The notes beneath the pieces are model-generated. The model was not told the DNA's origin, made no database searches, and worked only from the letters and a program-made list of their open reading frames with translations. A DNA stretch of 64,000 nucleotides. It comes from a candidate division WOR-3 bacterium (GTDB lineage Bacteria > SDB-A). The DNA lies in assembly GCA_016934535.1 (NCBI GenBank), contig JAFGSQ010000037.1, forward strand, positions 1 to 64,000. Direction: 5' to 3'. Numbering within the stretch: position 1 is the stretch's first letter; every line of letters begins with the position of its first letter. Shown piece after piece: positions 9,237-32,159 of the stretch. The translations under genes and the position numbers were made by a program.

Positions 9237-12200
9237 TCAATACCGCCATATCCACTGCAGACCTGCTCCCATGATGTCATCGGAGTCCTTGTTAAGGATG
9301 AAGGAAGTGTTCTTCCATATCCTGTAGGTCAAAGTAATATCCGCAGGGGTGTTGTTGAGAATGTCTTTCTTGTATTCGACATAGACATCGCGAGTGACGT
9401 ATTTGGCGAGGGTCAGTTTGGCGCTGTTCGACGAACCCAGTTGAGTCTCGAGATTTATTACACTGAGGTTCAAAGCCCTTTCGAGTCTTGAAAATACTTT
9501 GGTCCTGAGAAGGTAGTTTACCGCCCTGTTAGGCACGGCAGATGCAATAGTTGAAATCGAAGTTATGTTGCTCCAGGTCGTGTTGAAAGTCAGCAGTGAA
9601 ATGATATCCTGTTCAGACATTTTCGGTTCAGATGTCAGTGTCAGGGAAGGTGAGTTGATGTTGCCTGAAAGCCGGGCGATTATTGTCACTTCTCTCGACT
9701 CAGGAGAAGTCCCGTTCGCGGGATCGGAGTAATATATTTCAGTCTTTCCGTAAAAATCTATTTCGCCGTCAATTTGAGTCGAGTCGGTTATGAGCAGCAG
9801 TTGTCCCTCGGTTATCCTGAAACTCCTGTCGAGATAGAAAATGCTGCCGCGTTCTGCGATCAATTCGCCTTTCGTGCTGATCAAGCCGTCGAATGAAGAA
9901 ACATTGTAAGTCCCGCTGAGTTCGACTTCGGCCATTTCGTGCCTGAATATAATGTTCCCTGAAGAACCGTCAATGAATATTTCCATGTCAGGTATTTCCT
10001 GGTTTGCGGCAGGCTGTGACTGTGTTTCTGAAACAGGAGAGATGAGAGCCTGATTTATGAAAGCGTCGCCTCTTATAGACGAGTGAAAATTGGAGTCTAC
10101 TTGAATTTCGAGATTGCCCGTGACGTTTGCCCAAACTCCTTCGAATCCCGTATAGTCAACGTCCTTGAAATCTATTTTTATCCGGGAATTGAACGACCTG
10201 TAACCTTCGGTCATTACCAGGTCGCCTTCGACGCCGAAATGTCCCCGTGAATTCGTGCCTGCGACGCTGAAATTTATAGAGTCGTCGTGAAAATCGGCTT
10301 TAGCCGAAATGTTTTGAGCTATTTGACCTGCGGGTTTGATGAACGCGGCGCCTTCGACAAGCTCAACTTGTCCGTAAATGTCCGGATCTTTGTACGTCCC
10401 TTTTATGGAGGCGTTTCCCCTGACATTCCCGGAGAGCATGACAGCAATGTCTGAGAGGAATTCAAGAGGCCAGAGGCCTATGTCGTCGAAAAGAATTTTA
10501 AGATCGATCTCGTCTTCAGTCCCGAAGGGGAGATAACCCGAAATTGTCGAGGTTCTATTTTGAAAAACCAGCTCGCATGTATCGATTTTCAAGCCTCTCA
10601 AAGTCGTTTCGCCTTCCAAGTGAGCGAAGTCGAGAAAAAGCAGTCCGGACTTGACTTTTCCCGTACGGATCAGAACGTGAGCCCGTGGGTCTGAAAGCGG
10701 GCCCGAGAAGCCGGATCTAAGGTTTAGATAACCGTGTATAGGGGGTAAGGATGGAAAAAACGGATTCAAGTTCATGCTGACGCTGTCTGCGTTGAGAAAT
10801 CCTGATATGTTGTCCCCGTTTATCTCGCAGGAAGCGGAAAAATTCAGGCCGGAATAACCTTCGGCGTAAAATGTGTCCAGTGACAGACGATTGTCGGCAA
10901 AACTGACGATCAACGGCGAAGTCGTCAAAAGAAAAAACGAATCCGAGTTGATAGTTAAATTTTCAAATAAGATATTTGAATTTTCAGCGTCAAAAGCGAA
11001 AAAAGAACCGGCGTCGAAAAATTCAGAGGAGAGTGACACTTTTCCTTCGAGCAAATCGTCCGTTGTTTCTGCAAAAAGGGCAAACGTTTCTGCCGTGAAC
11101 TTATTGTAAACCAGACCTCTTCCCGAAATCCTGACTGCGTCGGCGGTGAATTTTGTGGCTTCGAAGTTTTCAAATTCCATGTCTATGAAGCGGCAGTAAA
11201 AACCGTTGAATTCGGCGTCCTCAGCGGTTACGTCGGCGTTTAGAAATTTTCCATCATACGTCAGAACGCCGTTGAGCCTGCCCCGGATCTGCCGGTCCGT
11301 GATTTTAAGTTGCGACAACAGAGAAACATTGAAATCCTGAAGACGGCAACTTAAATCGTAACCGTTTTTTGAAAAATCTATCTGTGCTCCCAGGTTACCA
11401 TACTCTCCTGTAACGCAGGCGATGGAGAGAGCGTAATGTCCCGCTCCTGCATTTAGCGTTCCGTAAAGTGAATTCAACGAGACATCGTTTACTGAAGAGT
11501 TGGCGAAAGAAAAAACCGCTTCGCAGACAAGAGAATCGGGATTCTTCAGTTCTTTTATCCAGCCTGCGGCCGTCCCGTTGGCAGTGAAATGATTTGGTGA
11601 AAATCCGGAAAGAAATCCTATGTCCAGAGATCTGATTCCTTGAAATTCCGACTGAAAAGACATCGAATCAGTTTTGGGAGCGTAAGAACAGTTAAGAAGC
11701 ATCTCTCCGCCGCCCAAATATATCCTGGAGTTGTCTGTCGATATCATTTCATCTTCGTAGGAAATTTCCGAGGAAATCGAGTCGGCGAAATACTTGTCAA
11801 ACGACAACCCTTCGGCAAATAAATTGAAATCGGCATATTTCAACCCTTCATGATATGTAAAACTTCCCTTTCCTGTAATTCTTCCTGAAATTTCTTTGCG
11901 CCACTCACTGACATCCGACCAGAAAGTGTCGATGACTGCACTGAATCTTGCTTCTCTCGAAAACACGTCGGCACGGGCAACAACGAAAGTGTTGCCGGTT
12001 CCGATTTCCACCAATCCTGATAATCTAAGGTCGGGATAGAGCACGACATCTGATTTTAAAAAAATCTGACTGGAAACATAACAGGTCGAAAAAGCGGCTT
12101 TTTCGACAGTTATGTTTATGCCTTCGGGATAAGACAGCAGGACAGCGTCGACCGATATGTCGGATATTTCTTTGGCGTCGTAAATGAGACGGCCGTTTGA

Positions 12201-12704
12201 AACAAATATCCTTTCGGCGGAAATTCTGGGGAAAGATATGTCTCCGGGCGGTTTACCGTCCTGAGGTTTAGGATCAAGATTCCAGTTGAGTACACCGGAT
12301 TCGGAGTGCGTGAATTGCAGAAACAGCCCGTCCGAAAAGACTGATTTGACTTGCCTTTTGTTTATAATGTCAAAAAAGCTGAAATTGATTTCAGCGTAAG
12401 GACAGCTCAGAAGCAGTTCTTCTCTGTCGTTGTATACGTGAAGGTCTTTGATCCAGACAGAAGGCTTGGAAAAAAACCCGGCCTGTTGATAGGTGACTTT
12501 GATGTCGAAAATATTTTCGAATATTTTTACTGTCTCTTTGAAAGCGAATTCTTCGGCTTTACCCTGAAAAACGGACGCGATGGCAAAATAGAGAATCCCC
12601 GTTGCAAATAAAAGGGGGACGAGTCTCAATCGCGGAAAGAATTTCCTCCAGCGCTCTTTGGGTTTTACTGTCCGTTTATTGTCAGAAGGGATTGCCGAAA
12701 GCAA
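9237..12704 (-). CDS. tamB: TamB-like translocation/assembly module (DUF490)
   Basis: A 1155-residue, beta-strand-rich protein with one N-terminal membrane helix (about residues 29-47) and a C-terminal TamB domain. The C-terminus ('ETQLGSSNSAKLTLAKYVTR', then VYVEYKKDILNN and the final WIWRY) is typical. TamB proteins span the periplasm from the inner membrane and work with an Omp85 partner in outer-membrane protein insertion or phospholipid transport. The gene overlaps the end of the Omp85 gene by 23 bases, the expected pairing and good support for a functional couple. It is the last gene of the long minus-strand run. Confidence 0.88.
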   Translation of the reverse strand: MLSAIPSDNKRTVKPKERWRKFFPRLRLVPLLFATGILYFAIASVFQGKAEEFAFKETVKIFENIFDIKVTYQQAGFFSKPSVWIKDLHVYNDREELLLSCPYAEINFSFFDIINKRQVKSVFSDGLFLQFTHSESGVLNWNLDPKPQDGKPPGDISFPRISAERIFVSNGRLIYDAKEISDISVDAVLLSYPEGINITVEKAAFSTCYVSSQIFLKSDVVLYPDLRLSGLVEIGTGNTFVVARADVFSREARFSAVIDTFWSDVSEWRKEISGRITGKGSFTYHEGLKYADFNLFAEGLSFDKYFADSISSEISYEDEMISTDNSRIYLGGGEMLLNCSYAPKTDSMSFQSEFQGIRSLDIGFLSGFSPNHFTANGTAAGWIKELKNPDSLVCEAVFSFANSSVNDVSLNSLYGTLNAGAGHYALSIACVTGEYGNLGAQIDFSKNGYDLSCRLQDFNVSLLSQLKITDRQIRGRLNGVLTYDGKFLNADVTAEDAEFNGFYCRFIDMEFENFEATKFTADAVRISGRGLVYNKFTAETFALFAETTDDLLEGKVSLSSEFFDAGSFFAFDAENSNILFENLTINSDSFFLLTTSPLIVSFADNRLSLDTFYAEGYSGLNFSASCEINGDNISGFLNADSVSMNLNPFFPSLPPIHGYLNLRSGFSGPLSDPRAHVLIRTGKVKSGLLFLDFAHLEGETTLRGLKIDTCELVFQNRTSTISGYLPFGTEDEIDLKILFDDIGLWPLEFLSDIAVMLSGNVRGNASIKGTYKDPDIYGQVELVEGAAFIKPAGQIAQNISAKADFHDDSINFSVAGTNSRGHFGVEGDLVMTEGYRSFNSRIKIDFKDVDYTGFEGVWANVTGNLEIQVDSNFHSSIRGDAFINQALISPVSETQSQPAANQEIPDMEIFIDGSSGNIIFRHEMAEVELSGTYNVSSFDGLISTKGELIAERGSIFYLDRSFRITEGQLLLITDSTQIDGEIDFYGKTEIYYSDPANGTSPESREVTIIARLSGNINSPSLTLTSEPKMSEQDIISLLTFNTTWSNITSISTIASAVPNRAVNYLLRTKVFSRLERALNLSVINLETQLGSSNSAKLTLAKYVTRDVYVEYKKDILNNTPADITLTYRIWKNTSFILNKDSDDIMGAGLQWIWRY

Positions 12705-14478
12705 ATTGGATCATTCCTTTGTAACGATGTTCGCCGACCATTGGCAATCCGTATTCGAGCCTGATCGGTCCGGCCGGTGTGTTGTAAATAATTCCGATTC
12801 CCAGTGAAATACCTACGTTTTCGTAAGGCGATATATCTTTCGAAGAGTTCCACAATCCTCCTGCGTCGGCGAAGAATTCAAGCGCGAATTCGCCTGAGCT
12901 GTAATGGATTTGCGTCATGGCGTTCATGAGGACGTTGCCGCTGTTGCCGCCGATTTCATCGGGGTCTCCCAGGGAACCCTCCGGATAGCCTCGGAGTGAA
13001 TTCACTCCGCCCAGTGTGATTTTCTGGTCGGAACTTATGCCGTTTTCGAGGGACACCGAATAAGGAAAAGTCCATGTCGAACGAAGGAAAACGTAGTATC
13101 CGAATTGCGACGGTTTCGCCAGCCGCACCCAGTCCCAGCCGAGTCTGTAGAAATAATTGTCACCGCCAAGGGGTCTGCCGGCCATCTGAAACCTAAAATT
13201 CTGTTTTAGACCGGTAGTGGGAGAAAACGGATTGTCCCTGGAATCGAAAGTGTAGCCGAATATAAGACTGTTTGTGAATTTACTGTATGTAAATTGCGGC
13301 TGATCCGTTCCGGATGAAGATGTCGTGTCAAGCCATGCTTTGTGAAAGACGAGGCCTGAATAAACAACGCCGCAGGCGGATATCCTTTTGCCCAGAGAAG
13401 GCGAAAATTCAAGGTATTCAATGTTTCTTTCTCCGATACCTTTTCTTTCGCCTTTAAGAGAGCTCGAAAAAATAAGCGAAGTGCCTAAAAAATAAGGTTC
13501 GGAATAGTTCAATTCCGCATTTTCAATGTAATCACCTTGAAAATCAGTGTCGTAGGAGACAGAAACTGAAATCCTCTGAGCGTTGCCGAAAAGATTGTAG
13601 TTTCCCCACTTGAGATTTATACCGGTTTTTCTGTCGCTTTTGTAGTTCAGTGAGACGAGGAAAAATGACATTTTGGATTCCTCGACCATGATTATGACTT
13701 TCAAACTGTCTTCGTGCAGTTTTGACGGCATAGGTTTTACCGAGACATACGAGAAAAGACCCGTGTAATAAAGATTGTTCCTGACCCTGGCGAGCATATC
13801 GGGGAAGAAAAGCTGTCCGCTTTTCAATCTTGATTCCATCTCTATTATTTTTGTTCTCACTCTGGAATTACCAAGTATTTCGACATTGTTAATAAAAACT
13901 TTGTTTCCAGTGTCTACGGAAATAAAAATGTCGCACAAAAGTGAATCCGCACTCAAAGGAACGATTGTGTCTTCGATCTTTATGTTGTAATATCCTCTGT
14001 TTATGTATTCTGAGGCAATTTTTATCTGTACCATCGTGAGGTTAATCTGATTCAAAGGCTTTCCCGGAAGGATGTCGTGCTGTTCAAAAGCCGACATGTC
14101 TGTTCCGGAATCACACCCAGACAAACTCACTGAATTGATGACCGACCTTTCTCCTTCATTTATCTCGTATTTCAGGACGTATCCTCTGGGTGTGAGAGAA
14201 TCGGTTTGATTGAGAACAGCCGCTTTGAGAAATCCGAGCTGAGAGTAATAAGCGAGTATGTTTTTGACATTTTTTGAGCTTGAGAAAGGGCTGTATAAAT
14301 CGTTTTCGTCCGAATAAAGATAAGGCCGTATGTCTTTTACACTGACCTCTTCACAACCGGTCAATTCGACTTTGTATATTCTGGCAAAAGAACTGTACGG
14401 GTCTTTTCTGGTTCCGCAAGAAAAAAGAAGCAAAAGTGCAGTCGTAATAATTATGGGTTTAAGTTCGAGGTGTTTCAT
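12682..14478 (-). CDS. Omp85-family outer-membrane protein (TamA/BamA-like), lipoprotein-type signal
   Basis: A 598-residue protein with POTRA-type repeats in the N-terminal half and an Omp85 16-strand barrel in the C-terminal half, ending in phenylalanine ('FAFGNPF') as expected for an outer-membrane protein. The signal sequence ends in a lipobox-like LLFSC-G, so the mature protein may be lipidated at Cys, which is unusual for BamA but seen in some Omp85 relatives. The late barrel segment 'PAGPIRLEYGLPM' matches the family. It lies directly upstream of the TamB-like gene, so TamA-like function is more likely than BamA. It is also shorter than a five-POTRA BamA. Confidence 0.88.
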   Translation of the reverse strand: MKHLELKPIIITTALLLLFSCGTRKDPYSSFARIYKVELTGCEEVSVKDIRPYLYSDENDLYSPFSSSKNVKNILAYYSQLGFLKAAVLNQTDSLTPRGYVLKYEINEGERSVINSVSLSGCDSGTDMSAFEQHDILPGKPLNQINLTMVQIKIASEYINRGYYNIKIEDTIVPLSADSLLCDIFISVDTGNKVFINNVEILGNSRVRTKIIEMESRLKSGQLFFPDMLARVRNNLYYTGLFSYVSVKPMPSKLHEDSLKVIIMVEESKMSFFLVSLNYKSDRKTGINLKWGNYNLFGNAQRISVSVSYDTDFQGDYIENAELNYSEPYFLGTSLIFSSSLKGERKGIGERNIEYLEFSPSLGKRISACGVVYSGLVFHKAWLDTTSSSGTDQPQFTYSKFTNSLIFGYTFDSRDNPFSPTTGLKQNFRFQMAGRPLGGDNYFYRLGWDWVRLAKPSQFGYYVFLRSTWTFPYSVSLENGISSDQKITLGGVNSLRGYPEGSLGDPDEIGGNSGNVLMNAMTQIHYSSGEFALEFFADAGGLWNSSKDISPYENVGISLGIGIIYNTPAGPIRLEYGLPMVGEHRYKGMIQFAFGNPF

Positions 14479-14497
14479 GATTGGACAGAAAAGCGGA

Positions 14498-15754
14498 TCA
14501 GAGAGATAAAGTCTCCCTGCCCGGGAAGTATTTTTTCAAAACTTCAGGAACCGACACTTCTCCGTTTTCCTGCTGATAATTCTCCAATATGGCTATCATC
14601 GTTCTCGGGGTGGCAAGAGCGCTTCCGTTTAAAGTGTGAACGAATGAAATTTTACCTTCTTCGTTTTTAAAGCGGATGTTGATCCTGCGTGATTGAAAAT
14701 CCCTGAAAAGCGACACCGATGACACTTCGAGGTACTTTTTCGACACGGGAGCCCAAGCTTCCAAATCGTATGTTATCGCGCTGGCAAAACTCATTTCACC
14801 GGTGCAAAGTTTTCTTGTCCTGAAAGGTATTTCTAATTTTTTAAGCACGAGCTGACTTTCTTCGAGAAGTTCCTCGAGACTGTTTCTGCTTTCCTCGGGT
14901 TTCGACAGATGCACGAGTTCGACTTTGTTGAACTGATGCATTCTCATTAGACCTTTCGTCTCCTTTCCGTAGGATCCCGCTTCACGCCTGAAACAAGTTG
15001 TGTAAGCGCAGATTTTTACAGGCAGTGATTCACAGCCGAGTAATTCCTGGGAAAACAGGTTTGTAACAGGCACTTCTGCGGTCGGATTGAGGAAGAGGTC
15101 GTCTTTTTCAATCAGATACATGTCCTCCTCGAGTTTCGGAAGCTGGCCCGTGCCGAACATCGCGTTTCTGTTGACGAGATAAGGCGGCAATAACTCTCTG
15201 TAACCGTTTTCGGAGTGCATCTCCATCATAAACATAATAAGAGCGAGTTCAAGCCGTGCTCCGTTTCCAGTGTACAGAGGGAAAGCGCTTTTTGAAACTT
15301 TTCCCGCGGAAGCGAAATCGAGAAGTTTTAATTTTGAAGAAAGCTCAAAATGGTCAAGTCCCTTTTTCTCGGAGCCGGGTTTGCCCCAGGAATAAACCGT
15401 TTCGTTGTCTTCGGCTGATTTTCCCGTTGGCACGTCCTGGTCCGGCACATTCGGTATCCAATACAGGGCTTCTTTCCATTTTTTGTCAGTTTCGGCGAAT
15501 TCCTTTTCGTCGGACTTTATCTCGGAAGAGAGTTTTTTTGACTCCGCCAGGAGATCCTGTCCGTTTATTTTTTTTGCAGATATTTCTTTTGAAAGAGCGT
15601 TGAGCCTGCTTCTCTTGTTTTCTATCATCTTTAAAGAGAACTTTCTCGCTTCATCAATTTCAAAAAAAGCGTCAAGATCGCATTTTTCTCCTTTCGACGC
15701 GACGGCAATCTTCACATATTCTCTGTTTTCTCTTATATATTTTACGTCAAGCAT
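14498..15754 (-). CDS. serS: Seryl-tRNA synthetase
   Basis: Charges tRNA-Ser in the cytoplasm. The N-terminal 110 residues form the expected antiparallel coiled-coil arm ('MLDVKYIRENREYVK', 'ENKRSRLNALSKEISA'). The class II catalytic core follows, with 'NPTAEVPVTNLF', the motif-2 region 'CFRREAGSYGKETKGLMR' and motif 3 'GSALATPRTMIAILE'. Length (418 aa) is normal. The start overlaps the end of the Lon-like gene by eight bases, indicating co-transcription, and the Omp85 gene starts 19 bases after its stop. Confidence 0.96.
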   Translation of the reverse strand: MLDVKYIRENREYVKIAVASKGEKCDLDAFFEIDEARKFSLKMIENKRSRLNALSKEISAKKINGQDLLAESKKLSSEIKSDEKEFAETDKKWKEALYWIPNVPDQDVPTGKSAEDNETVYSWGKPGSEKKGLDHFELSSKLKLLDFASAGKVSKSAFPLYTGNGARLELALIMFMMEMHSENGYRELLPPYLVNRNAMFGTGQLPKLEEDMYLIEKDDLFLNPTAEVPVTNLFSQELLGCESLPVKICAYTTCFRREAGSYGKETKGLMRMHQFNKVELVHLSKPEESRNSLEELLEESQLVLKKLEIPFRTRKLCTGEMSFASAITYDLEAWAPVSKKYLEVSSVSLFRDFQSRRINIRFKNEEGKISFVHTLNGSALATPRTMIAILENYQQENGEVSVPEVLKKYFPGRETLSL

Positions 15755-18134
15755 ATCTTCCTCTCTTCACGGCGTATGATTTTTCGAAGTAATTTTTCAA
15801 ACCTTCTTTTATGCGTTTTTCTATGTACTGCATTTTATTTCTTTCGTTTCCGGTGTCCAATATCAGACAAAGCGTTTCGTCAATTGAATTCACGGAATAT
15901 ATAGAGAATGATCCGGCGGCTGACGATTGTCGGATGTCTTTCCCGAGCATCAGCGAATTTTCGTTGTCTTTGGGTATTATGAGCGATCCGTTCCTTATTT
16001 TTTTCATTTTACACGTTCTGTAAAAACCTTCTATTTTTTCGTTGATTCCTCCGACTGCCTGAACATTTCCTGTCTGATCGACTGATCCGGTAACGGCAAA
16101 ATTCTGTTTGACAGGGATTTTGGAAATGCATGACAAAAGAGCGCATATTTCTGCGACGGAAGCGCTGTCGCCGTCGATAATGTTGTAGGACTGCTCGAAA
16201 CAAACGGATGCGTGTATGGACAAAGGGGATTCCTCGGCGTATTTACCTCTGAGATACCCGCTTATGATATTGACTCCCTTTGTGTGGATTTCTCCTGAAA
16301 GGTTGGATTTTCTGTCTATGCTTATTATGCCTTTCTCTCCGGGTGACACCCGCGCTGTTATCCTCGCCGGCAGTCCTACGGGGATGTCGTCTGTGTCAAT
16401 AATCGTCAGGCCGTTCACTTGACCGATCTGACTTCCTTTGAGAAAAATTTTAATGACGTTGTCACGTATCAGTCTGAGGTATTCTCTTTCGAGAGACGTT
16501 CTTCTGAATCGCATCATGTCTATTGCTTTTTCGACGGATTTTTGGGTGACCGTTTTCGCTTTTTTGTTTTTCTTGGTTTCCCAGTAACTGCTTTCCTTCA
16601 TCAGATCGGATATTTTTCCGAATTTTGTGCTTATCAGTTTTTTGTCCCCGGCGAGTTTGACGGCGTATTCACAAATGCTGATCACCGACTCGCGTGAAAA
16701 ATGCGGCAAATTTTCTTTTTTCGACGTCAGGGCGATGAAATTTGAATATTTTTTAAGGTTTCTTTTCGAAAGCAACATGTGCTCGTCGAACTTGGCCTTG
16801 ATTTTGAATATCTTCGGGAAATCGGGATCCTTGTAATATAGCGCAGAATATATTTCGTCGTTCCCTATCATGACAACTTTAACGTCGATTTCAACCGGAT
16901 TCGGTCTTAGATAACTTCGCGAGGAGAGAGGATTGGCCACGGGTGTTATTTCCAGTCTCTGGGTTTTGAGCGTTCTTTTAAGTCTTTGCCATGAATTTTC
17001 CTCCTGAAGGAGGTCAAATGCGTCGATTATCAAAAAGCCTTTGTGGGCTTTTAGAAGACTGCCGGCTTTAATGCTGGTGTGGATCTTTTCGCTCGAGCTG
17101 ACGTTTTCGACAGTTCCGAACAGATTGTTCTCTGACGGAAAACTCTCGATAATGACTGGCCTTTTAATTTTTTTGTGGTTGTTGACGGCGACGTTTATGC
17201 TCATAATACTGTCTATGCTTTCTTTCTCGGATTTCCATTTTTCTTTGTCCTGTTCGGCCTCCATGAGAGTTTTCCAGAGAGATATGTTGGTAAGCATATA
17301 GTCGAGGTAAAAATCGAGATAATCTTTCATTTCCGCCGAAGAAGTGAGCTCTTTCAGGTCTTCGAAAATGAGTTTCAGAAAAGGGTATGCCGTGTCTATG
17401 TCGAGCTTTTTCTTTCTGTTTGAAAAAGCCGTTCTCAAAGTTTTAAAATCGTTCAGATATAAAGCTATCGTTTTTTCGATCTCGTCTTTTTTTTCGAGAA
17501 ATTCCTTCAGTTTTTTGTTTTTTAGCTGGTTTTTCTCAACCAGTTCGGTAAGTTCGTTGAAGCTGAAAACTTTTTTTTTGTGAACGGGCATAAGTTCCAT
17601 TTTCGAGCCTTCTCCTTCGGTCTTCATCCACCTGAATCCCGAAGTTTTAACGAGTTTGTCGATTTTGGAAAAAATTCTGTTCTCTTCCTTTTTTTCTTTT
17701 TTTTCAAAAGTCATAAGTTCCGACATGTATTTGTCGTTGAAATAAATGGCCGATATAAGATTTTCAAGATTCTCGAGAAGTTCCTCCAAAGCCCGTGAAA
17801 GCAGTATTCCTTCACCTTTCGAGAGTTTGATTGAAACAGGCTCTTCGGGAATGTCGAAGTTGTATAGAAAAATTATGTCTTCAAGATTTTTTTCGCCTCT
17901 TCCTATTTTTTTAGTAAGAAACTTGTGAAGAGTGCTTTTTCTCCCCGTACCGGCTAATCCGGAGATGAATACGTTGTAACCCTGCCCGTCTATCTCAATG
18001 CCGGTCGTTATGGATTCTATTGCTTCCCGCTGACCTATTATGTCTTCGGTGGGATTCAACTCGGAGGTGGTTTTGAATTTGAAAACATCTTCTGGGCAGG
18101 ACCATGTGAGCTTGGAAGCGATTATTTTTTTCAA
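15747..18134 (-). CDS. Lon-like ATP-dependent protease (AAA_32 + Lon C-terminal domain)
   Basis: A 795-residue protease of the LonB/AAA_32 type rather than classical Lon: there is no Lon N-terminal substrate domain. A P-loop-like stretch GLAGTGRKST (59-68) carries an extra Arg between the glycine and the lysine. A long Lys/Glu-rich helical insertion (about 100-290) follows. The C-terminal serine protease domain has catalytic S657 (IDGDSAS) and K700 (GGINEKIEG), 43 residues apart as in Lon. Probable role: degradation of damaged or regulatory proteins in the cytosol. The stop overlaps the serS start, and its own start overlaps the biotin-carrier stop (ATGA). Confidence 0.88.
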   Translation of the reverse strand: MKKIIASKLTWSCPEDVFKFKTTSELNPTEDIIGQREAIESITTGIEIDGQGYNVFISGLAGTGRKSTLHKFLTKKIGRGEKNLEDIIFLYNFDIPEEPVSIKLSKGEGILLSRALEELLENLENLISAIYFNDKYMSELMTFEKKEKKEENRIFSKIDKLVKTSGFRWMKTEGEGSKMELMPVHKKKVFSFNELTELVEKNQLKNKKLKEFLEKKDEIEKTIALYLNDFKTLRTAFSNRKKKLDIDTAYPFLKLIFEDLKELTSSAEMKDYLDFYLDYMLTNISLWKTLMEAEQDKEKWKSEKESIDSIMSINVAVNNHKKIKRPVIIESFPSENNLFGTVENVSSSEKIHTSIKAGSLLKAHKGFLIIDAFDLLQEENSWQRLKRTLKTQRLEITPVANPLSSRSYLRPNPVEIDVKVVMIGNDEIYSALYYKDPDFPKIFKIKAKFDEHMLLSKRNLKKYSNFIALTSKKENLPHFSRESVISICEYAVKLAGDKKLISTKFGKISDLMKESSYWETKKNKKAKTVTQKSVEKAIDMMRFRRTSLEREYLRLIRDNVIKIFLKGSQIGQVNGLTIIDTDDIPVGLPARITARVSPGEKGIISIDRKSNLSGEIHTKGVNIISGYLRGKYAEESPLSIHASVCFEQSYNIIDGDSASVAEICALLSCISKIPVKQNFAVTGSVDQTGNVQAVGGINEKIEGFYRTCKMKKIRNGSLIIPKDNENSLMLGKDIRQSSAAGSFSIYSVNSIDETLCLILDTGNERNKMQYIEKRIKEGLKNYFEKSYAVKRGRYA

Positions 18135-18451
18135 TCATCGCTCCTGTATATAACTACGTCCCCTTTTTTTACTTTATCACCCGGTTTGATTTTCAGAACC
18201 ATTACTTTTCCGCGGTATTCGGAAAAGATCTTGTTGTAGGATTTCATCGCTTCAATTACGTAAAGGATGTCTCCTTTTTCAACCCGAGAGCCTTCGCGGA
18301 CAAAGATTTCTTTTATTATTCCGGGGATCGGAGATTTCTCTTCCTTCTGCGTGTTTTTTTCAAAATTGACGCCAGGATTTTTTCTTTTGAAATTATTGGT
18401 TATATAAAAAGAGTCGTCGACGTTGAGTTCTATCTTTTCGTTAAACATCAT
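18131..18451 (-). CDS. Biotin carboxyl carrier protein (biotinyl domain)
   Basis: A 106-residue carrier whose C-terminal half is a biotinyl/lipoyl-like domain with the attachment motif EAMK; K70 would carry biotin. The N-terminal 40 residues are charged and variable. It follows the carboxyltransferase gene by six bases, so it is very likely the mobile carboxyl carrier of that enzyme. No biotin carboxylase gene is present nearby. The system may therefore be a decarboxylase or transcarboxylase, or the carboxylase may be encoded elsewhere. The start codon is one of two adjacent ATGs at 18449-18451 and 18446-18448. Confidence 0.9.
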   Translation of the reverse strand: MMFNEKIELNVDDSFYITNNFKRKNPGVNFEKNTQKEEKSPIPGIIKEIFVREGSRVEKGDILYVIEAMKSYNKIFSEYRGKVMVLKIKPGDKVKKGDVVIYRSDD

Positions 18452-18457
18452 TCGCTC

Positions 18458-20002
18458 CTAAACAGGCATATTGCCGTGGTGTTTCCAAAGCGACTGCCTC
18501 GACTTTTCCCTAAAAATGCCCAGCATGTTTATCAGTATCTGGCGGGTTTCTTCGGGTTCAATGACGGCGTCGACGAAACCCTTTGAGGCGGCGACATAGG
18601 GATTTGCGAATTTTTCCTGATATTCGGTTATTTTTTCTTTTCTCGTTGCGTCTGGATCCTGGCTGTTTTCTATTTCTTTCTTGAAGAGTATGTTCGCGGC
18701 GCCTTCCGGTCCCATGACTGCGATTTCCGCGGTCGGCCATGCCGCGACGAAGTCAGCACCGAGGTGTTTACTGCACATCGCAATGTAGCCTCCGCCGTAT
18801 GCCTTTCTTATAATAACTGTCAGTTTAGGTACAGTGGCTTCGGAATAGGCGTAAAGAACTTTCGCGCCGTGACGAATGACTCCCGCGTGCTCCTGATCTA
18901 TGCCCGGAAGATAGCCGGGAATGTCGACAAAAGTCAGAAGGGGAATGTTGAAGGAATCGCAAAATCTTATAAAACGAGCAGCTTTATCCGCCGCGTTGAC
19001 ATCGAGAACTCCAGCGAGATAATAAGGCTGGTTGGCGACTATTCCGACAGAATGTCCCCCGAGTCTGCCGAAACCGACAACTATGTTTTTTGCCCAGTTC
19101 TCGTGAACTTCCAGGAACTCGGACTTGTCGGTTATTGAGCTTATAATGTCAAGCACGTCGTATGTGACTTTCGGATCGGATGGTATCGTTTTTGTTATGT
19201 CGAATTGTTTTTTCGGGTTTTCTGCAGGGATGAGAGAAGGCATCTCTTTGTTGTTGGCAGGGATGTAAGACAAGAGAGCTTTTATGAGGGAAAAAGCTTC
19301 CGGCTCGCTGGGAGCAACGAAATGCGCGTTGCCGGTGATCTCGGCGTGGGTCATTGCCCCGCCCAAATCCTCCATGGAAATTTCTTCACCTATGACGGCT
19401 TTAATAACTTCCGGACCGGTTATGAACATATTGCTTATTTTTTCGACAACTATCACAAAATCGGTGAGGGCGGGTGAATATACCGCCCCTCCTGCGCAAG
19501 GACCAAGTATGACCGATATCTGAGGCACAACACCCGAGAGTTTTGTGTTTTTATAAAAGATGTCGCCGTATCCCGCCAGTGCGCCGACTCCTTCCTGAAT
19601 TCTTGCTCCGCCTGAGTCGTTTAGGCCTATGAGAGGCATGCCGGAATCTCTTGCCATGTCCATGACTTTCACTATCTTCGAGGCGTGACCTTCTCCGAGA
19701 GATCCGCCTGCGACGGTGAAGTCCTGGGCGAAAAGAGCCACGGGTCGGCGGGAAATTTTTCCTACGCCGGTTATCACTCCGTCACCGGCAAGCATGACTC
19801 CGTCCAGTCCGTATCCTCGAGCTTTGTGTTCGACGAAGAGGTCTGTCTCAAAGAAACTGCCTTCGTCGATCAGAGCTTCGATCCTTTCTCTGGCTGTCAG
19901 TTTGCCCTTGTCTTTCTGCCTTCTGATTGATTTCTCGCCGCCTCCGGATTTCCACTTCTGAACTCTGACAATGAAATCGGCAATTACAGATTTAATGTCC
20001 AT
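18458..20002 (-). CDS. Acyl-CoA carboxyltransferase (methylmalonyl-CoA decarboxylase alpha / propionyl-CoA carboxylase beta family)
   Basis: A 514-residue carboxyltransferase of the crotonase-fold ACCT family, moving CO2 between biotin and propionyl- or methylmalonyl-CoA. It begins with the typical 'KLTARERIEALIDEGSFFE'. The two acyl-CoA and carboxybiotin oxyanion regions are 'NDSGGARIQEGVGALAGYG' with 'GPCAGGAVYSPALTDF', and 'DIPGYLPGIDQEHAGVI' with 'KAYGGGYIAMCSKHLG'. Length fits both MmdA and PccB. Without biotin carboxylase or membrane subunits nearby I cannot decide between propionyl-CoA carboxylase, Na+-pumping decarboxylase or transcarboxylase. It forms a unit with the biotin carrier and lies downstream of the DUF3467 gene. 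Confidence 0.9.
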   Translation of the reverse strand: MDIKSVIADFIVRVQKWKSGGGEKSIRRQKDKGKLTARERIEALIDEGSFFETDLFVEHKARGYGLDGVMLAGDGVITGVGKISRRPVALFAQDFTVAGGSLGEGHASKIVKVMDMARDSGMPLIGLNDSGGARIQEGVGALAGYGDIFYKNTKLSGVVPQISVILGPCAGGAVYSPALTDFVIVVEKISNMFITGPEVIKAVIGEEISMEDLGGAMTHAEITGNAHFVAPSEPEAFSLIKALLSYIPANNKEMPSLIPAENPKKQFDITKTIPSDPKVTYDVLDIISSITDKSEFLEVHENWAKNIVVGFGRLGGHSVGIVANQPYYLAGVLDVNAADKAARFIRFCDSFNIPLLTFVDIPGYLPGIDQEHAGVIRHGAKVLYAYSEATVPKLTVIIRKAYGGGYIAMCSKHLGADFVAAWPTAEIAVMGPEGAANILFKKEIENSQDPDATRKEKITEYQEKFANPYVAASKGFVDAVIEPEETRQILINMLGIFREKSRQSLWKHHGNMPV

Positions 20003-20013
20003 TTTTTACCTCT

Positions 20014-20310
20014 TTAGATGTTGTTGAAACCCATTACGTTCTTTTCGGGTTCATCGGTTTTTATGATGCCGAACTTGTCCTCGAAATCTTTCACGCGTTC
20101 TTCGAGAAGTTTTATCAGTCTTTTTGCTGTCTGAGGGGGCATTATAATTCTGCTGTTGATCTTTGCTTTGTTTTTTCCCGGTACAAGCCTCGCAAAATCA
20201 ACTACAAATTCGGCAGGTGAAGACAAAATTATGACAAAATTGCTGTAAGTTCCGTCGGAGACCTCGTCGGGGAGTTCTATGGATATCTGCGCCGGAATTT
20301 GTTGTTTCAT
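20014..20310 (-). CDS. DUF3467 family protein (98 aa)
   Basis: Small cytoplasmic protein of unknown function that matches the DUF3467 pattern: 'SDGTYSNFVIILSSPAEFVVDF', then a Pro-Gly-Lys-Ala-Lys stretch, 'SRIIMPPQTAKRL' and a C-terminal helix. The frame extends to 20343, but the ATG at 20310 is chosen because GGAGG (20319-20315, minus strand) stands four bases before it and the family begins here. It is the first gene of the 11-kb minus-strand run that ends with the TamB-like gene, so its promoter probably drives all of it. The family's function is not known. Confidence 0.85.
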   Translation of the reverse strand: MKQQIPAQISIELPDEVSDGTYSNFVIILSSPAEFVVDFARLVPGKNKAKINSRIIMPPQTAKRLIKLLEERVKDFEDKFGIIKTDEPEKNVMGFNNI

Positions 20311-20349
20311 CAATCCTCCGTTTTTATGAAAATTTGCATACAATCATTG

Positions 20350-20379
20350 ATTATACTTTAAATTTTCAAGCCGTGGCAA
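20350..20379 (-). promoter_or_regulatory. Promoter of the DUF3467-to-TamB run (TTGCCA-18-TATAAT)
   Basis: On the minus strand TTGCCA (20379-20374) and a perfect TATAAT (20355-20350) are 18 bases apart. The start of transcription would be near 20343, leaving a leader of about 33 bases with a GGAGG site. The -35 box lies inside the first palindrome of the tandem repeat. Confidence 0.6.
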
Positions 20380-20415
20380 GATAATAACTTGCCATGGCAA
20401 GATAATGACTTGACA
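20374..20415. repeat. Two abutting 21-bp palindromic repeats (operator candidate)
   Basis: Two 21-bp units lie end to end (20374-20394 and 20395-20415) and differ at two positions. Unit 1 is a perfect inverted repeat, TGGCAAG-N7-CTTGCCA; unit 2 is TGGCAAG-N7-CTTGACA. The left arm of unit 1 is the -35 box of the minus-strand promoter, and the right arm of unit 2 contains the TTGACA -35 box of the plus-strand promoter. A protein bound here would cover both. The regulator is unknown. Confidence 0.7.
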
Positions 20416-20438
20416 GAAATCTGTTCAATATTTAATAT
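20410..20438 (+). promoter_or_regulatory. Promoter of the J-domain gene (TTGACA-17-TAATAT), leaderless
   Basis: Consensus TTGACA (20410-20415), a 17-base spacer and TAATAT (20433-20438). The ATG of the J-domain gene begins at 20445, exactly where transcription would start, and no ribosome-binding site lies between. Confidence 0.65.
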
Positions 20439-20444
20439 CTCAAG

Positions 20445-21104
20445 ATGGAAGATTTCTACGAAATCCTCGGAGTGACGTTTAATGCCACAGACTCTGAAAT
20501 AAGAGAAAGATACATAGCCCTTGCCAAACAGCATCACCCGGATCACATTGAAGATAAAACGGGTCTTTCGTGGAGGAAAGCAAACGACAGATTCGCTGAG
20601 ATAACAAGAGCATACAAAACCCTGATAGACAGAGACAGAAGGAACGAATATGACAGAAAACTTTCCGGAGAGGTCGACAAAAGCCTCGTCGTTCAGGCGA
20701 AAAACCTTTTTGCCCAAGCCAGAGCGGCTGTTAAAGCGAAAAATTGGTCCAGGGCCGAGATACTGATCGATGCCGCCATTAAAGTGCACAAAAAAACGGA
20801 GTATCTTGTTTATCTTTCGATGATTAGAGTATCAACGGGCCGGGAAGTAGCGAAGAACATTGAATCAATCCAGAGATCGCTCAAGGACAGAATTTTCGAA
20901 GGATTTTTTCACGCCGTATACGCCTGGGCTCTTTACGGAATGAGAAGATTCGACGAGGCCCGTTTTTCCCTCAACGAAGCTTTCAAATGGGATCCCGAAT
21001 GCATCGAGGCCATTGATCTGAAAGAAGTTCTTGAAGGAGATTTCCCCGAAACGGCAAAGAAGGGTGTTTTCAAAAAAGTCAGGAATATTTTCAAAAAAGA
21101 GTGA
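20445..21104 (+). CDS. J-domain protein with C-terminal TPR-like helices
   Basis: A 219-residue DnaJ-type co-chaperone-like protein. The J domain covers about residues 1-70 with the HPD motif (QHHPDHIE) that stimulates DnaK, but the Gly/Phe and zinc-finger regions of true DnaJ are absent. Residues 85-190 form helical repeats resembling TPRs ('AKNWSRAEILIDAAIKV', 'RRFDEARFSLNEAFKWDPE'). It is therefore a type III J protein that may bring a specific client to DnaK. It is the first gene of the long plus-strand run, apparently translated from a leaderless message. The comEC frame overlaps its 3' end. Confidence 0.85.
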   Translation: MEDFYEILGVTFNATDSEIRERYIALAKQHHPDHIEDKTGLSWRKANDRFAEITRAYKTLIDRDRRNEYDRKLSGEVDKSLVVQAKNLFAQARAAVKAKNWSRAEILIDAAIKVHKKTEYLVYLSMIRVSTGREVAKNIESIQRSLKDRIFEGFFHAVYAWALYGMRRFDEARFSLNEAFKWDPECIEAIDLKEVLEGDFPETAKKGVFKKVRNIFKKE

Positions 21105-24785: not shown

Positions 24786-25964
24786 TTGCCGGAGACTTAT
24801 TCAATAAAGGTATTCGGCTGTAAGGTAAACCAGTACAACGCCGAAATAATTGAAAGCTCTCTCTCATCGGCCGGTTATGTCAAAAAGAAAAATTTTCCCG
24901 ATTTTACAGTTGTTTTTTCCTGCAGTGTCACCGAAGAAGCGCGCAGGGAATGTATTTCCCAGATAAAAAAATCAAAAAAAGAATCGGGCAGGATTTACGT
25001 CAGCGGCTGTTTTAAAGGCGAAGCCCAACGAGGTGAAGAGATTCTGAATGAAATCGGCGTCGAAAAAGCGGATTACCCTCTTGTCAGGAAGAGATCGAGG
25101 CCTGTTGTCTCAGTTCAGGAGGGCTGCGTTTCCTTTTGTTCTTTTTGCGTCGTCAATCCGATGAGAGGGAGATCAGTTACGAGAAATCAGGCGAGTGTAA
25201 TACAGGAGATCTCGATGCTCGAAAGTTCGGGTTATCCTGAAGTTGTGATTGCCGGCATAAGTCTCGGCAAAACGGAAGGCGGATTCGGCAAGTTCCTTAA
25301 AAAACTTGTTTCGTCCACAGAATCAATAAGCTTCAGAATAGGCTCGCTCAATCCCCGCGATATCATAGACGACGCCGAATTCAATGAGATGTTGAACGAA
25401 AAACGCGTGTTGCCTCACCTTCATCTTTCCATGCAGAGCGGATCACCGGCAGTTTTGAAGGACATGATGAGAAAATACGAACCGCAAGAGGTTATAAAAT
25501 TTGTTTGTCATTTCAGGGACAAAAGAGAAAATCCGGGTGTAGGGGTGGACATCATTGCCGGATTTCCGACAGAATCCCCTGAAAGCCACGCCGAAACAAT
25601 GGATTTTCTTCAAAAACTGTCTCCCTCCTATGCTCATGTCTTTCCTTTTTCGGCGAGGAAAGGCACTCTTGCCAACCTTTGTCCCGACACTGTCGGATCG
25701 GAGGAGAGGACGAAAAGGGCTTTGGAAATCAGGAATATGGCTAAGAATCTCAGCAGAAAATTTCTCGAAAGCCTTGTCGGGACAACAAGACTTGCCGTCG
25801 TCGAAAGGAATAACGGCGGTTTATATACGGCGAGAACAGACAATTACGCCGTCGTCGAAATAATCTCCGATAAATATATGAAAAACTCTTCAAAAGTGAG
25901 AATTGTGATAGAATCCTTCGATCAGATAAAAAGAAAACTGAAAGGAAAGCCGTGTTCGGAGTGA
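24786..25964 (+). CDS. mtaB: tRNA t6A37 methylthiotransferase MtaB-like
   Basis: Radical-SAM enzyme adding a methylthio group to t6A37 of tRNA. The N-terminal domain has its three cluster cysteines (GCKVNQYN, FSCSVT, SGCFKGEA) and the radical SAM motif C-x3-C-x2-C follows (GCVSFCSFC). 'GCKVNQYN' is the MtaB signature that sets it apart from MiaB and RimO. At 392 residues it is shorter than the usual 430 or so, mainly in the C-terminal TRAM part. The start is TTG at 24786 with no good ribosome-binding site; an upstream CTG is possible. It stands just before miaB. Confidence 0.85.
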   Translation: MPETYSIKVFGCKVNQYNAEIIESSLSSAGYVKKKNFPDFTVVFSCSVTEEARRECISQIKKSKKESGRIYVSGCFKGEAQRGEEILNEIGVEKADYPLVRKRSRPVVSVQEGCVSFCSFCVVNPMRGRSVTRNQASVIQEISMLESSGYPEVVIAGISLGKTEGGFGKFLKKLVSSTESISFRIGSLNPRDIIDDAEFNEMLNEKRVLPHLHLSMQSGSPAVLKDMMRKYEPQEVIKFVCHFRDKRENPGVGVDIIAGFPTESPESHAETMDFLQKLSPSYAHVFPFSARKGTLANLCPDTVGSEERTKRALEIRNMAKNLSRKFLESLVGTTRLAVVERNNGGLYTARTDNYAVVEIISDKYMKNSSKVRIVIESFDQIKRKLKGKPCSE

Positions 25965-25999
25965 TGGAATCAAGATTCTTTCTGATATAATCTTCGTCT

Positions 26000-27220
26000 A
26001 TGAAATACTATATAAAGACATACGGCTGTCAGATGAATTTCTCTGAGTCGAGATACATGGCAGAAGAGCTCGGTTCGAGAGGGCTGTTGTGGACCGACAA
26101 CCTGAGCGAAGCGGACCTTATAATAGTCAACGCCTGCTCTGTTAGAAAGCACGCCGAAGACAGGGCGGTCGGATGGATAAGCTCGGTTTCGGGGAAAAAG
26201 GCAAAAATCCTCGCCGTGGGCTGTCTCGCCTCACACGTTCCGGAAAGGCTCAAAAGCGCCGGAGCCGACGAAGTCTCTGCAAAAATAGATTTTGAAAAAA
26301 TTGACCGGATTGAAAGAGGGGAAGGTATTTTTTCAAATGATCTTAAATTCGACCGGATCGAATACGAAATTCCTGTTGTCGTCGGTTGTGACAGATTTTG
26401 CACTTATTGTATAGTTCCTTATCTTCGAGGAAAAGTCGTGTCGAAAAATCCTGAAGAAATTTTTAGCGACGTCGAAAAATGTGTGTCAAAAGGAGGCGAG
26501 GTATTCAGTCTCCTCGGTCAGAATGTCAACAGATATGATTACAAAGGTTACAGGTTTTCTTCTCTTTTAAACGACGTGTCATATATTGCAGGTGTGAAGA
26601 AAGTGACTTTTATGACGTCTCATCCCGCCGACCTTTCAAAAAAAACAGTGGAGACTGTCGCCGGAAACGGAAAGATACTCAAGCATTTTCATCTGCCCTT
26701 CCAGACCGGTTCTGATAAACTTCTCAAACAGATGAAGAGAGGTTACGACGTAAAAAAATATACTGATGACATAAGTATGATAAAGGATATTTATCCTGAA
26801 ATGCGCCTGACAACTGACGTAATGGTCGGTTTACCCGGAGAATCGAAATGTGATTTTGAAGATACGCTCGATCTTGTAAGAAAAATAAGATTCGACGAAG
26901 CATACATGTACGCTTTTTCTCCGAGAAAAGGAACTCTCGACAACTTGATGCCCTGTCAAGCAGAGGAAGATGTCGGGAAAAAACGGCTGGCCGAACTTAT
27001 AGTTTTGCAAAACGGCATATCTCTGGAAAAAAAGAAAGAGAGACTGAACACCATGCAAAGAGCTATGATTACGTCAATATCGCGTTTCGGCGGATATTCT
27101 CTGGGAATACTTGCTGATTTTTCACCCGTTTTAATAGACGCCGAATTTGAAAGGGGCAGGGAGTTGGACGTAATGTTGAGCGGATTGAAAGGAGCGACGC
27201 TTTTTGGACGGCCTGTTTGA
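26000..27220 (+). CDS. miaB: tRNA-2-methylthio-N6-dimethylallyladenosine synthase MiaB
   Basis: Radical-SAM methylthiotransferase acting on i6A37 of tRNA. Motifs in order: TYGCQMN at the N-terminus, VNACSVR and VGCLAS (the auxiliary cluster cysteines), then GCDRFCTYC (C-x3-C-x2-C, SAM cluster) followed by 'IVPYLRGKVVSK'. A compact TRAM domain closes the protein. At 406 residues it is slightly short. It is followed by mutS with a 17-base overlap, so the genes are co-transcribed. The neighbouring MtaB paralogue would serve other tRNAs. Confidence 0.92.
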   Translation: MKYYIKTYGCQMNFSESRYMAEELGSRGLLWTDNLSEADLIIVNACSVRKHAEDRAVGWISSVSGKKAKILAVGCLASHVPERLKSAGADEVSAKIDFEKIDRIERGEGIFSNDLKFDRIEYEIPVVVGCDRFCTYCIVPYLRGKVVSKNPEEIFSDVEKCVSKGGEVFSLLGQNVNRYDYKGYRFSSLLNDVSYIAGVKKVTFMTSHPADLSKKTVETVAGNGKILKHFHLPFQTGSDKLLKQMKRGYDVKKYTDDISMIKDIYPEMRLTTDVMVGLPGESKCDFEDTLDLVRKIRFDEAYMYAFSPRKGTLDNLMPCQAEEDVGKKRLAELIVLQNGISLEKKKERLNTMQRAMITSISRFGGYSLGILADFSPVLIDAEFERGRELDVMLSGLKGATLFGRPV

Positions 27221-30669: not shown

Positions 30670-31914
30670 TTGAAGTATATTGAAATCAAAAAACTGATAG
30701 ACGGTCTCGAAAACCGCGAAAAAGGTATGATGAGGTATTTCGAGCCCAATTTGACCGGGCTCAGGAATGTCGCCGCTTCTATGAGCATGAGAAAAAGAAA
30801 AACGGTCAAAGTTGTCGGCACCAACGGCAAAGGTTCAGTCTGCGCTATTTTGACGTCAATTCTCGCTGAAAGCGGACTTAAAACAGTCACTTTCACTTCT
30901 CCTCATCTCGTCAATGAACTGGAGAGGATTAGAATAAATGGAACCGACGTCCCCGAGGAGATTTTTTATCCGGCGATTTCAAAGGTCTTCAGATACGCCG
31001 GCAAGTTTCTCACTTATTTCGAGGCGATGTTTTTAACAGCCCTGACAGTAGCTGAAGATGAAGACGCAGACGTTCTGATACTCGAGGCGGGGATGGGAGG
31101 TAAATTAGACGCTACTAACGCAGTTGAATGCGACGTGTTTTGCTGTACGTCAATTTCCATCGATCACTCTGATGTTCTCGGAGAGACAGTATTTCAGATA
31201 GCACTGGACAAGGCCGGCGGAATGAGCCCCGGTTGTGACGTAGTGTTAGATCTCAAAAAGCCATTGAGAGATCTGTTCGAGCTCCGGGCTTCCCTGAACG
31301 GATCGAGATTTTTTCCGGCGGACGATCTGATAGAAAAAGTGTCAGGGCGCTGTTCCGGCGAAGGAATCCTTTTCAATTGTCGAAATTTCGGAGAAGTATT
31401 TGTTCCCCTCAAAGGCATGTTTCAGATAGAAAATATCAAATTAGCCCTGGCGATAATAGAAAGACTGAAAAGCGAATTTAAAATCGAAACCCGTCATGTG
31501 CTGATAGGCGCTGAAAAAACAGTTCATTTAGGGCGGCTTCATTATGTAGGTCGAAATCCCCTGAAGATTATAGACGGAAGCCACAACGTCAATGGTGTGC
31601 GCGAAACCGTGAAATTTCTTTCGGATACACACGGGGGCTTGAAATTTTCAGTTTTTTTTTCGGCCATGAGGGACAAGGATTATCTTGGAATGATAGAAGC
31701 ACTCGATTCTGTAGCCGGAGTGTTTTACGCATCTGGAATAACAGACAGAATTCTTAAAAAACAGGAATATGAGGAGGCTTTTAACAGGATTGGTCGCAAG
31801 TTCAATTATCTGGAAAGAGATGAATTCATTACGGAATTTATAAAAAACAAAGATGACAGCATAGCGGTCGGAAGCCTTAGAACGGCCGGCGAAATTCTTA
31901 AAGCGTTGACATAA
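30670..31914 (+). CDS. folC: Folylpolyglutamate / dihydrofolate synthase
   Basis: Adds glutamate to folates (and possibly to dihydropteroate). The Mur-ligase-type P-loop GTNGKGS lies at residues 50-56. It is followed by 'TSPHLVNELERIRING', 'ILEAGMGGKLDATNAV' and 'SIDHSDVLGETVFQIALDK', all characteristic of FolC. The C-terminal glutamate ligase domain contains 'IIDGSHNVNG' and ends with 'VGSLRTAGEIL'. Length (414 aa) is normal. The start is TTG at 30670, six bases after the propeller gene. It supports the folate pool used by GlyA and TrmFO, both encoded in the window. Confidence 0.94.
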   Translation: MKYIEIKKLIDGLENREKGMMRYFEPNLTGLRNVAASMSMRKRKTVKVVGTNGKGSVCAILTSILAESGLKTVTFTSPHLVNELERIRINGTDVPEEIFYPAISKVFRYAGKFLTYFEAMFLTALTVAEDEDADVLILEAGMGGKLDATNAVECDVFCCTSISIDHSDVLGETVFQIALDKAGGMSPGCDVVLDLKKPLRDLFELRASLNGSRFFPADDLIEKVSGRCSGEGILFNCRNFGEVFVPLKGMFQIENIKLALAIIERLKSEFKIETRHVLIGAEKTVHLGRLHYVGRNPLKIIDGSHNVNGVRETVKFLSDTHGGLKFSVFFSAMRDKDYLGMIEALDSVAGVFYASGITDRILKKQEYEEAFNRIGRKFNYLERDEFITEFIKNKDDSIAVGSLRTAGEILKALT

Positions 31915-31940: not shown

Positions 31941-32159
31941 ATGGAAAAATCAAAGAGCGTGTCTTTTGAGAAGATGATGTCGAGGATAGGCGAGATTGTC
32001 GACTCTCTGGAAGACCCGAATTTGCCTCTGGAAAAGTCTATTGATCTCTACGAAGAAGGCATGAAGCTCATAAAAAAGACCCGATCGTATCTTTTTGAAG
32101 CCGAAAAGAGGATCAAAATAATTACCGAAGAAGATAAGATCGAGGAAGCGGATATTTGA
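31941..32159 (+). CDS. xseB: Exodeoxyribonuclease VII small subunit
   Basis: A 72-residue subunit of the exonuclease that degrades single-stranded DNA. 'SFEKMMSRIGEIVDSLEDPN' followed by 'LPLEKSIDLYEEGMKL' is the family signature. The large subunit XseA is not in this window. Its stop overlaps the TTG start of ispA, the gene order (xseB-ispA) seen in many bacteria. Confidence 0.93.
   Translation: MEKSKSVSFEKMMSRIGEIVDSLEDPNLPLEKSIDLYEEGMKLIKKTRSYLFEAEKRIKIITEEDKIEEADI

Follow-up and report, generated by a model that had tools for sequence, protein, structure and literature searches.

Back-to-back divergent promoters of the sigma70 type consist of two complete outward promoters in one intergenic region, with the -35 boxes facing each other and the -10 boxes outside. 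A different arrangement is found in bidirectional promoters with a shared symmetrical -10 element, in which transcription starts on opposite strands within or on either side of one -10, as outlined in PMC12825309 after Warman et al. (2021). Competition between the two directions of such shared promoters in E. coli occurred only when one direction was strongly activated, and the authors stated that direct clashes of this kind do not affect separate divergent promoters (PMC12825309). Overlapping divergent promoters under an operator array form the pLS20 switch, as it is outlined in PMC4207663.

The locus analyzed here is located in a 64-kb window (the whole stretch of DNA analyzed, positions 1 to 64,000 of contig JAFGSQ010000037.1) from a candidate division WOR-3 bacterium. 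The phylum was represented by four genomes, namely that of the window, two congeners (G001 and G002) and one other member of the family serving as outgroup (G003). G002 corresponds to JAFGIG010000116.1, candidate division WOR-3, isolate Zod_Metabat.185. The features of the locus are the following.

20014-20310, minus strand: DUF3467 gene, first gene of the minus-strand run, with a probable ATG at 20310 behind GGAGG (20315-20319)
20350-20355, minus strand: predicted -10 box TATAAT of the DUF3467-to-TamB run; ATTATACTTTAA identical in the window, G001 and G002, ATTATACTT in G003
20374-20379, minus strand: predicted -35 box of the DUF3467-to-TamB run, TTGCCA; G002 and G003 have the same hexamer and 18-bp spacer, and the hexamer of G001 is TTGCAA
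20374-20394: unit 1, left arm TGGCAAG, core ATAATAA, right arm CTTGCCA (TGGCAAGATAATAACTTGCCA); the left arm is the minus-strand -35 box
20395-20415: unit 2, left arm TGGCAAG, core ATAATGA, right arm CTTGACA (TGGCAAGATAATGACTTGACA); the right arm is the plus-strand -35 box
20410-20415, plus strand: predicted -35 box of the J-domain run, TTGACA, with the same hexamer in G001 and G002
20433-20438, plus strand: predicted -10 box TAATAT of the J-domain run, with a 17-bp spacer and 6 nt to the ATG, likewise in G001 and G002
20445-21104, plus strand: gene of a J-domain plus TPR protein, first gene of the plus-strand run

The two units abut and follow the pattern TGGCAAG-N7-CTTGnCA, and the original prediction was exact to the base, both in position and sequence and in the 21-bp period and the coverage of the two -35 boxes. 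The arms matched at 7/7 positions in unit 1, which is a perfect dyad, and at 6/7 in unit 2, and the 7-bp core of the palindrome was itself not palindromic. Perfect 7-7-7 inverted repeats occurred nine times in the 64-kb window, and such a dyad taken alone is within chance expectation. What goes beyond chance is the identity of the abutting units at 19 of 21 positions (mismatches at two) and the presence of one conserved unit at the corresponding site of either congener. The identity of the abutting units indicates a duplication, and the two dyads are not independent events if one was copied from the other.

In a sigma70-type consensus scan of 19 kb, the minus promoter (TTGCCA-18-TATAAT) matched the consensus at 11/12 positions and ranked first of 41, and the plus promoter (TTGACA-17-TAATAT) matched at 10/12. 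The promoters lie on opposite strands with spacers of 16-18 bp and the -10 boxes outermost, and their elements and spacing are kept in relatives, both promoters in G001 and G002 and the minus one also in G003. Nothing essential separates this arrangement from back-to-back divergent sigma70 promoters, the 21-bp duplication between the -35 boxes being a local peculiarity. The claim of a divergent promoter pair with the -35 boxes as outer arms, at a conserved place and heading two long runs, was therefore borne out at the level of promoter prediction.

Comparison with the other described systems was less close. The locus resembles the shared -10 promoters, as far as PMC12825309 describes them, in that symmetry of an element gives divergent transcription and possibly competition of polymerases. 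However, it is the -35 boxes that are symmetrical here, and the two promoters have no element in common. In the window the predicted starts lie near 20343 (minus) and 20445 (plus), about 102 bp from each other, and in the congeners the distance is about 81 bp, compared with 10-23 bp in five E. coli cases (PMC12825309). Assignment to the bidirectional promoters with a shared -10 was rejected on the separate -10 boxes at 20350-20355 and 20433-20438. The pLS20 switch, in the outline given in PMC4207663, is alike in having repeated elements between divergent promoters, but the site described here has neither an adjoining regulator gene nor a second operator.

The minus-strand run is tight, with gaps of -23 to 19 bp, and reads DUF3467, PccB-like carboxyltransferase, biotinyl protein, LonC-like protease, SerRS, Omp85 and TamB (to 9237). 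The plus-strand run starts with J-domain/TPR, ComEC and so on, and is fairly tight only to 31914, where a 241-bp gap with a promoter-like site (32095-32122) follows. Because of this gap and promoter-like site, control of the whole 20-kb plus-strand run from the site is unlikely; the originally described layout of both runs was correct, but its 'whole 20-kb plus-strand run' overstated the reach of a tight run that stops at 31914. Both runs consist mostly of housekeeping genes. Gene order around the site was conserved in all four genomes where contigs reach, and was inverted on the G003 contig. Over 9237-21104, the order TamB-Omp85-SerRS-LonC-biotinyl-PccB-DUF3467 divergent from J-domain-ComEC was kept in 4/4 phylum genomes. 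A DUF3467 protein is at the head of the minus run, and the literature on DUF3467 yielded an incidental mention only. Two adjacent tandem UPF0004/radical-SAM genes (MiaB/MtaB-like methylthiotransferase) were observed at 24786-27220.

The start of the J-domain/TPR gene (20433-20447) is also conserved in the window, G001 and G002, the -10 ending 6 nt before the ATG. No Shine-Dalgarno-like sequence was found upstream of this ATG in the same three genomes. Since the -10 is only 6 nt from the ATG and a Shine-Dalgarno-like sequence is lacking, a leaderless J-domain mRNA is predicted for each of these species. A preference for leaderless transcripts was assessed genome-wide by counting TTGACA..TANNNT followed by ATG at 5-7 nt versus 30-32 nt. 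The counts were 15 versus 14 in the window genome, 14 versus 12 in G002 and 12 versus 5 in G001. A genome-wide preference was thus not shown in the window genome or G002, while the short spacing was commoner in G001.

Both congeners carried one unit in the orthologous intergenic region, TGGCAAGATAATAACTTGACA in G002 and TTGCAAGATAATAACTTGACA in G001. The minus spacer of 18 bp, the plus spacer of 17 bp and the 6 nt from -10 to ATG were common to the window, G001 and G002, whereas the -35 hexamers were separated by 9 bp in G001 and G002 and by 30 bp in the window. The promoter on the DUF3467 side was exact in G003 (TTGCCA-18-TATAAT), where the other palindrome arm was gone. The doubled array is thus a 21-bp tandem duplication, most simply one confined to the lineage of the window, because the alternative requires two losses of one unit. 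The expectation of conservation in relatives therefore held for the single unit, which is kept in the genus, and failed for the pair, which is unique to the window genome. The optimal -35 TTGACA is retained in the right arm of the congeners, while drift in the left arm is uncompensated (arm match 6/7 in G002 and 5/7 in G001). This drift is modest evidence from three species, and is to be expected of -35 boxes and not of a dyad recognized by a symmetric dimer.

Taken together, the site is probably two constitutive-type (housekeeping, sigma70-type) promoters placed back to back with their middle duplicated, which would require no dedicated regulator. Facing -35 boxes have the form TGTCAA...TTGACA, an inverted repeat by construction, and a -35 box facing its reverse complement makes the stretch read as a 20-21 bp palindrome. 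What is conserved in the arms is the -35 hexamer and one further base. Comparison of the species shows that the genus ancestor had two outward-facing -35 hexamers 9 bp apart (TGGCAA-G-ATAATAA-C-TTGACA). In the window lineage the 21-bp stretch was then duplicated in tandem; a less simple course would be two separate losses of one unit in the other lineages. The duplication moved the promoters apart by two helical turns, to the present 30 bp between -35 boxes, and left the right arm of unit 1 and the left arm of unit 2 unused. With the boxes 9 bp apart, simultaneous binding of two polymerases would be hindered, and a distance of 30 bp would relieve the hindrance. The effect of this shift on polymerase interference may be small, since direct clashes do not affect separate divergent promoters according to PMC12825309.

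The conservation of the middle is less readily explained by two promoters. A 19-bp core, GCAAGATAATAACTTGACA, was identical in both congeners and one base off each window unit, and the 7-bp core ATAATAA was identical in both congeners and window unit 1. The four-fold sites of the J-domain gene were saturated (23-32% pairwise identity, 3/44 identical in all three species), therefore any unconstrained base should have drifted. The chance of seven A/T-only columns staying identical is roughly 6e-5. These comparisons indicate that the 7-bp core is under constraint beyond what two -35 hexamers explain. In an UP element, the alpha subunits of RNA polymerase contact DNA just upstream of the -35 box, and the A/T stretch at this site sits immediately upstream of the -35 box for both promoters. 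The likeliest cause of the fixed core, which we assume here, would be proximal UP-element-like contacts of the alpha subunits common to both promoters; a local regulator is a possible cause. Two observations count against plain back-to-back promoters, namely the identity of the core despite saturated four-fold sites, and the change from CTTGACA to CTTGCCA in unit 1, which, if it was a point mutation, created the perfect dyad.

Whether the doubling matters is evenly balanced. The chances are about equal that the doubled unit has no effect on expression and is a neutral, recent slipped-strand duplication in one genome, as suggested by the near identity of the units, by the presence of the pair in one of three species and by the -35/-10 spacings, which are untouched in both promoters. 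This reading falls within that of back-to-back promoters, and the two probabilities overlap. It is compatible with them, the single difference being that the change in distance from 9 to 30 bp would be of no consequence.

A local operator is unlikely. Here a dimeric regulator would bind the palindrome and block or tune both promoters as its single target, with two in-phase cooperative sites in the window species and one in the congeners. The core identity beyond saturated neutral divergence, the 21-bp phase and the perfect dyad of unit 1 are in agreement with such an operator, and a site covering both -35 boxes would be well placed for a repressor. However, the arms are fully accounted for as -35 boxes, the arm changes between the three species are uncompensated, the core is not palindromic and the runs are mostly housekeeping. 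No recognizable DNA-binding transcription factor was found among the annotated genes of the 64-kb window (about 50 proteins compared with Pfam). Nor were further copies found at other promoters or at a regulator's own gene. The genome-wide check for further TGGCAAG-N7-CTTGCCA sites gave no other copies at ≤1 mismatch in the window genome. With a free core and ≤2 mismatches, three places were detected (the two units and C39:7204, inside coding sequence), compared with seven for a reversed control pattern. The full 21-mer at ≤3 mismatches gave only the orthologs in the four phylum genomes. Other back-to-back -35 layouts in these four genomes were unrelated to the window site.

It is quite improbable that a new, dedicated regulator of this uncultured phylum recognizes GCAAGATAATAACTTGACA and jointly governs the envelope/protease run and the J-domain run; if it does, the 21-bp duplication would be a natural way for one operator to become a cooperative pair. 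The originally proposed tandem operator for a regulon found no support, with no third genome site at ≤1 mismatch and the pair absent from the congeners. A global regulator site common to many genes, as the genome-wide check supposed, is very improbable, since nothing beyond the dyad itself speaks for it, the own genome has no further site at ≤1 mismatch, and G001-G003 have only the orthologs of the full 21-mer at ≤3 mismatches. Searches extending to 60 genomes gave only the orthologs in this phylum, and the matches of a loose pattern in other phyla were scattered and had unrelated cores.

Two known operator types were also considered and rejected. The HspR/HAIR heat-shock operator, considered for the J-domain gene, is CTTGAGT-N7-ACTCAAG; the arms TGGCAAG-N7-CTTGnCA have the opposite polarity, and the junction CTTGCCA/TGGCAAG is without a spacer. 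SARP-type heptamer repeats have a shorter spacing than this site and were rejected on that ground.

A separate perfect 30-bp palindrome, TGTCAAGTATTTTGCGCAAAATACTTGACA, was observed in G003 (L063:1501-1530, contig C44), about 50 bp upstream of a DUF6088-domain gene that is preceded by GGAGG and that we take to be AbiEi-like. There are -35-like boxes overlapping this palindrome, and judged from its sequence it resembles a genuine autoregulatory operator, in contrast to the window site.

Back-to-back housekeeping promoters thus remain the preferred reading of the window site. The case shows that divergent promoters can mimic an operator when sequence alone is considered, and that this effect is doubled when a short stretch is duplicated in tandem. 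With their natural alleles of one and two units, the sister species offer a clean pair for asking whether polymerases at back-to-back promoters interfere with each other at 9 versus 30 bp.
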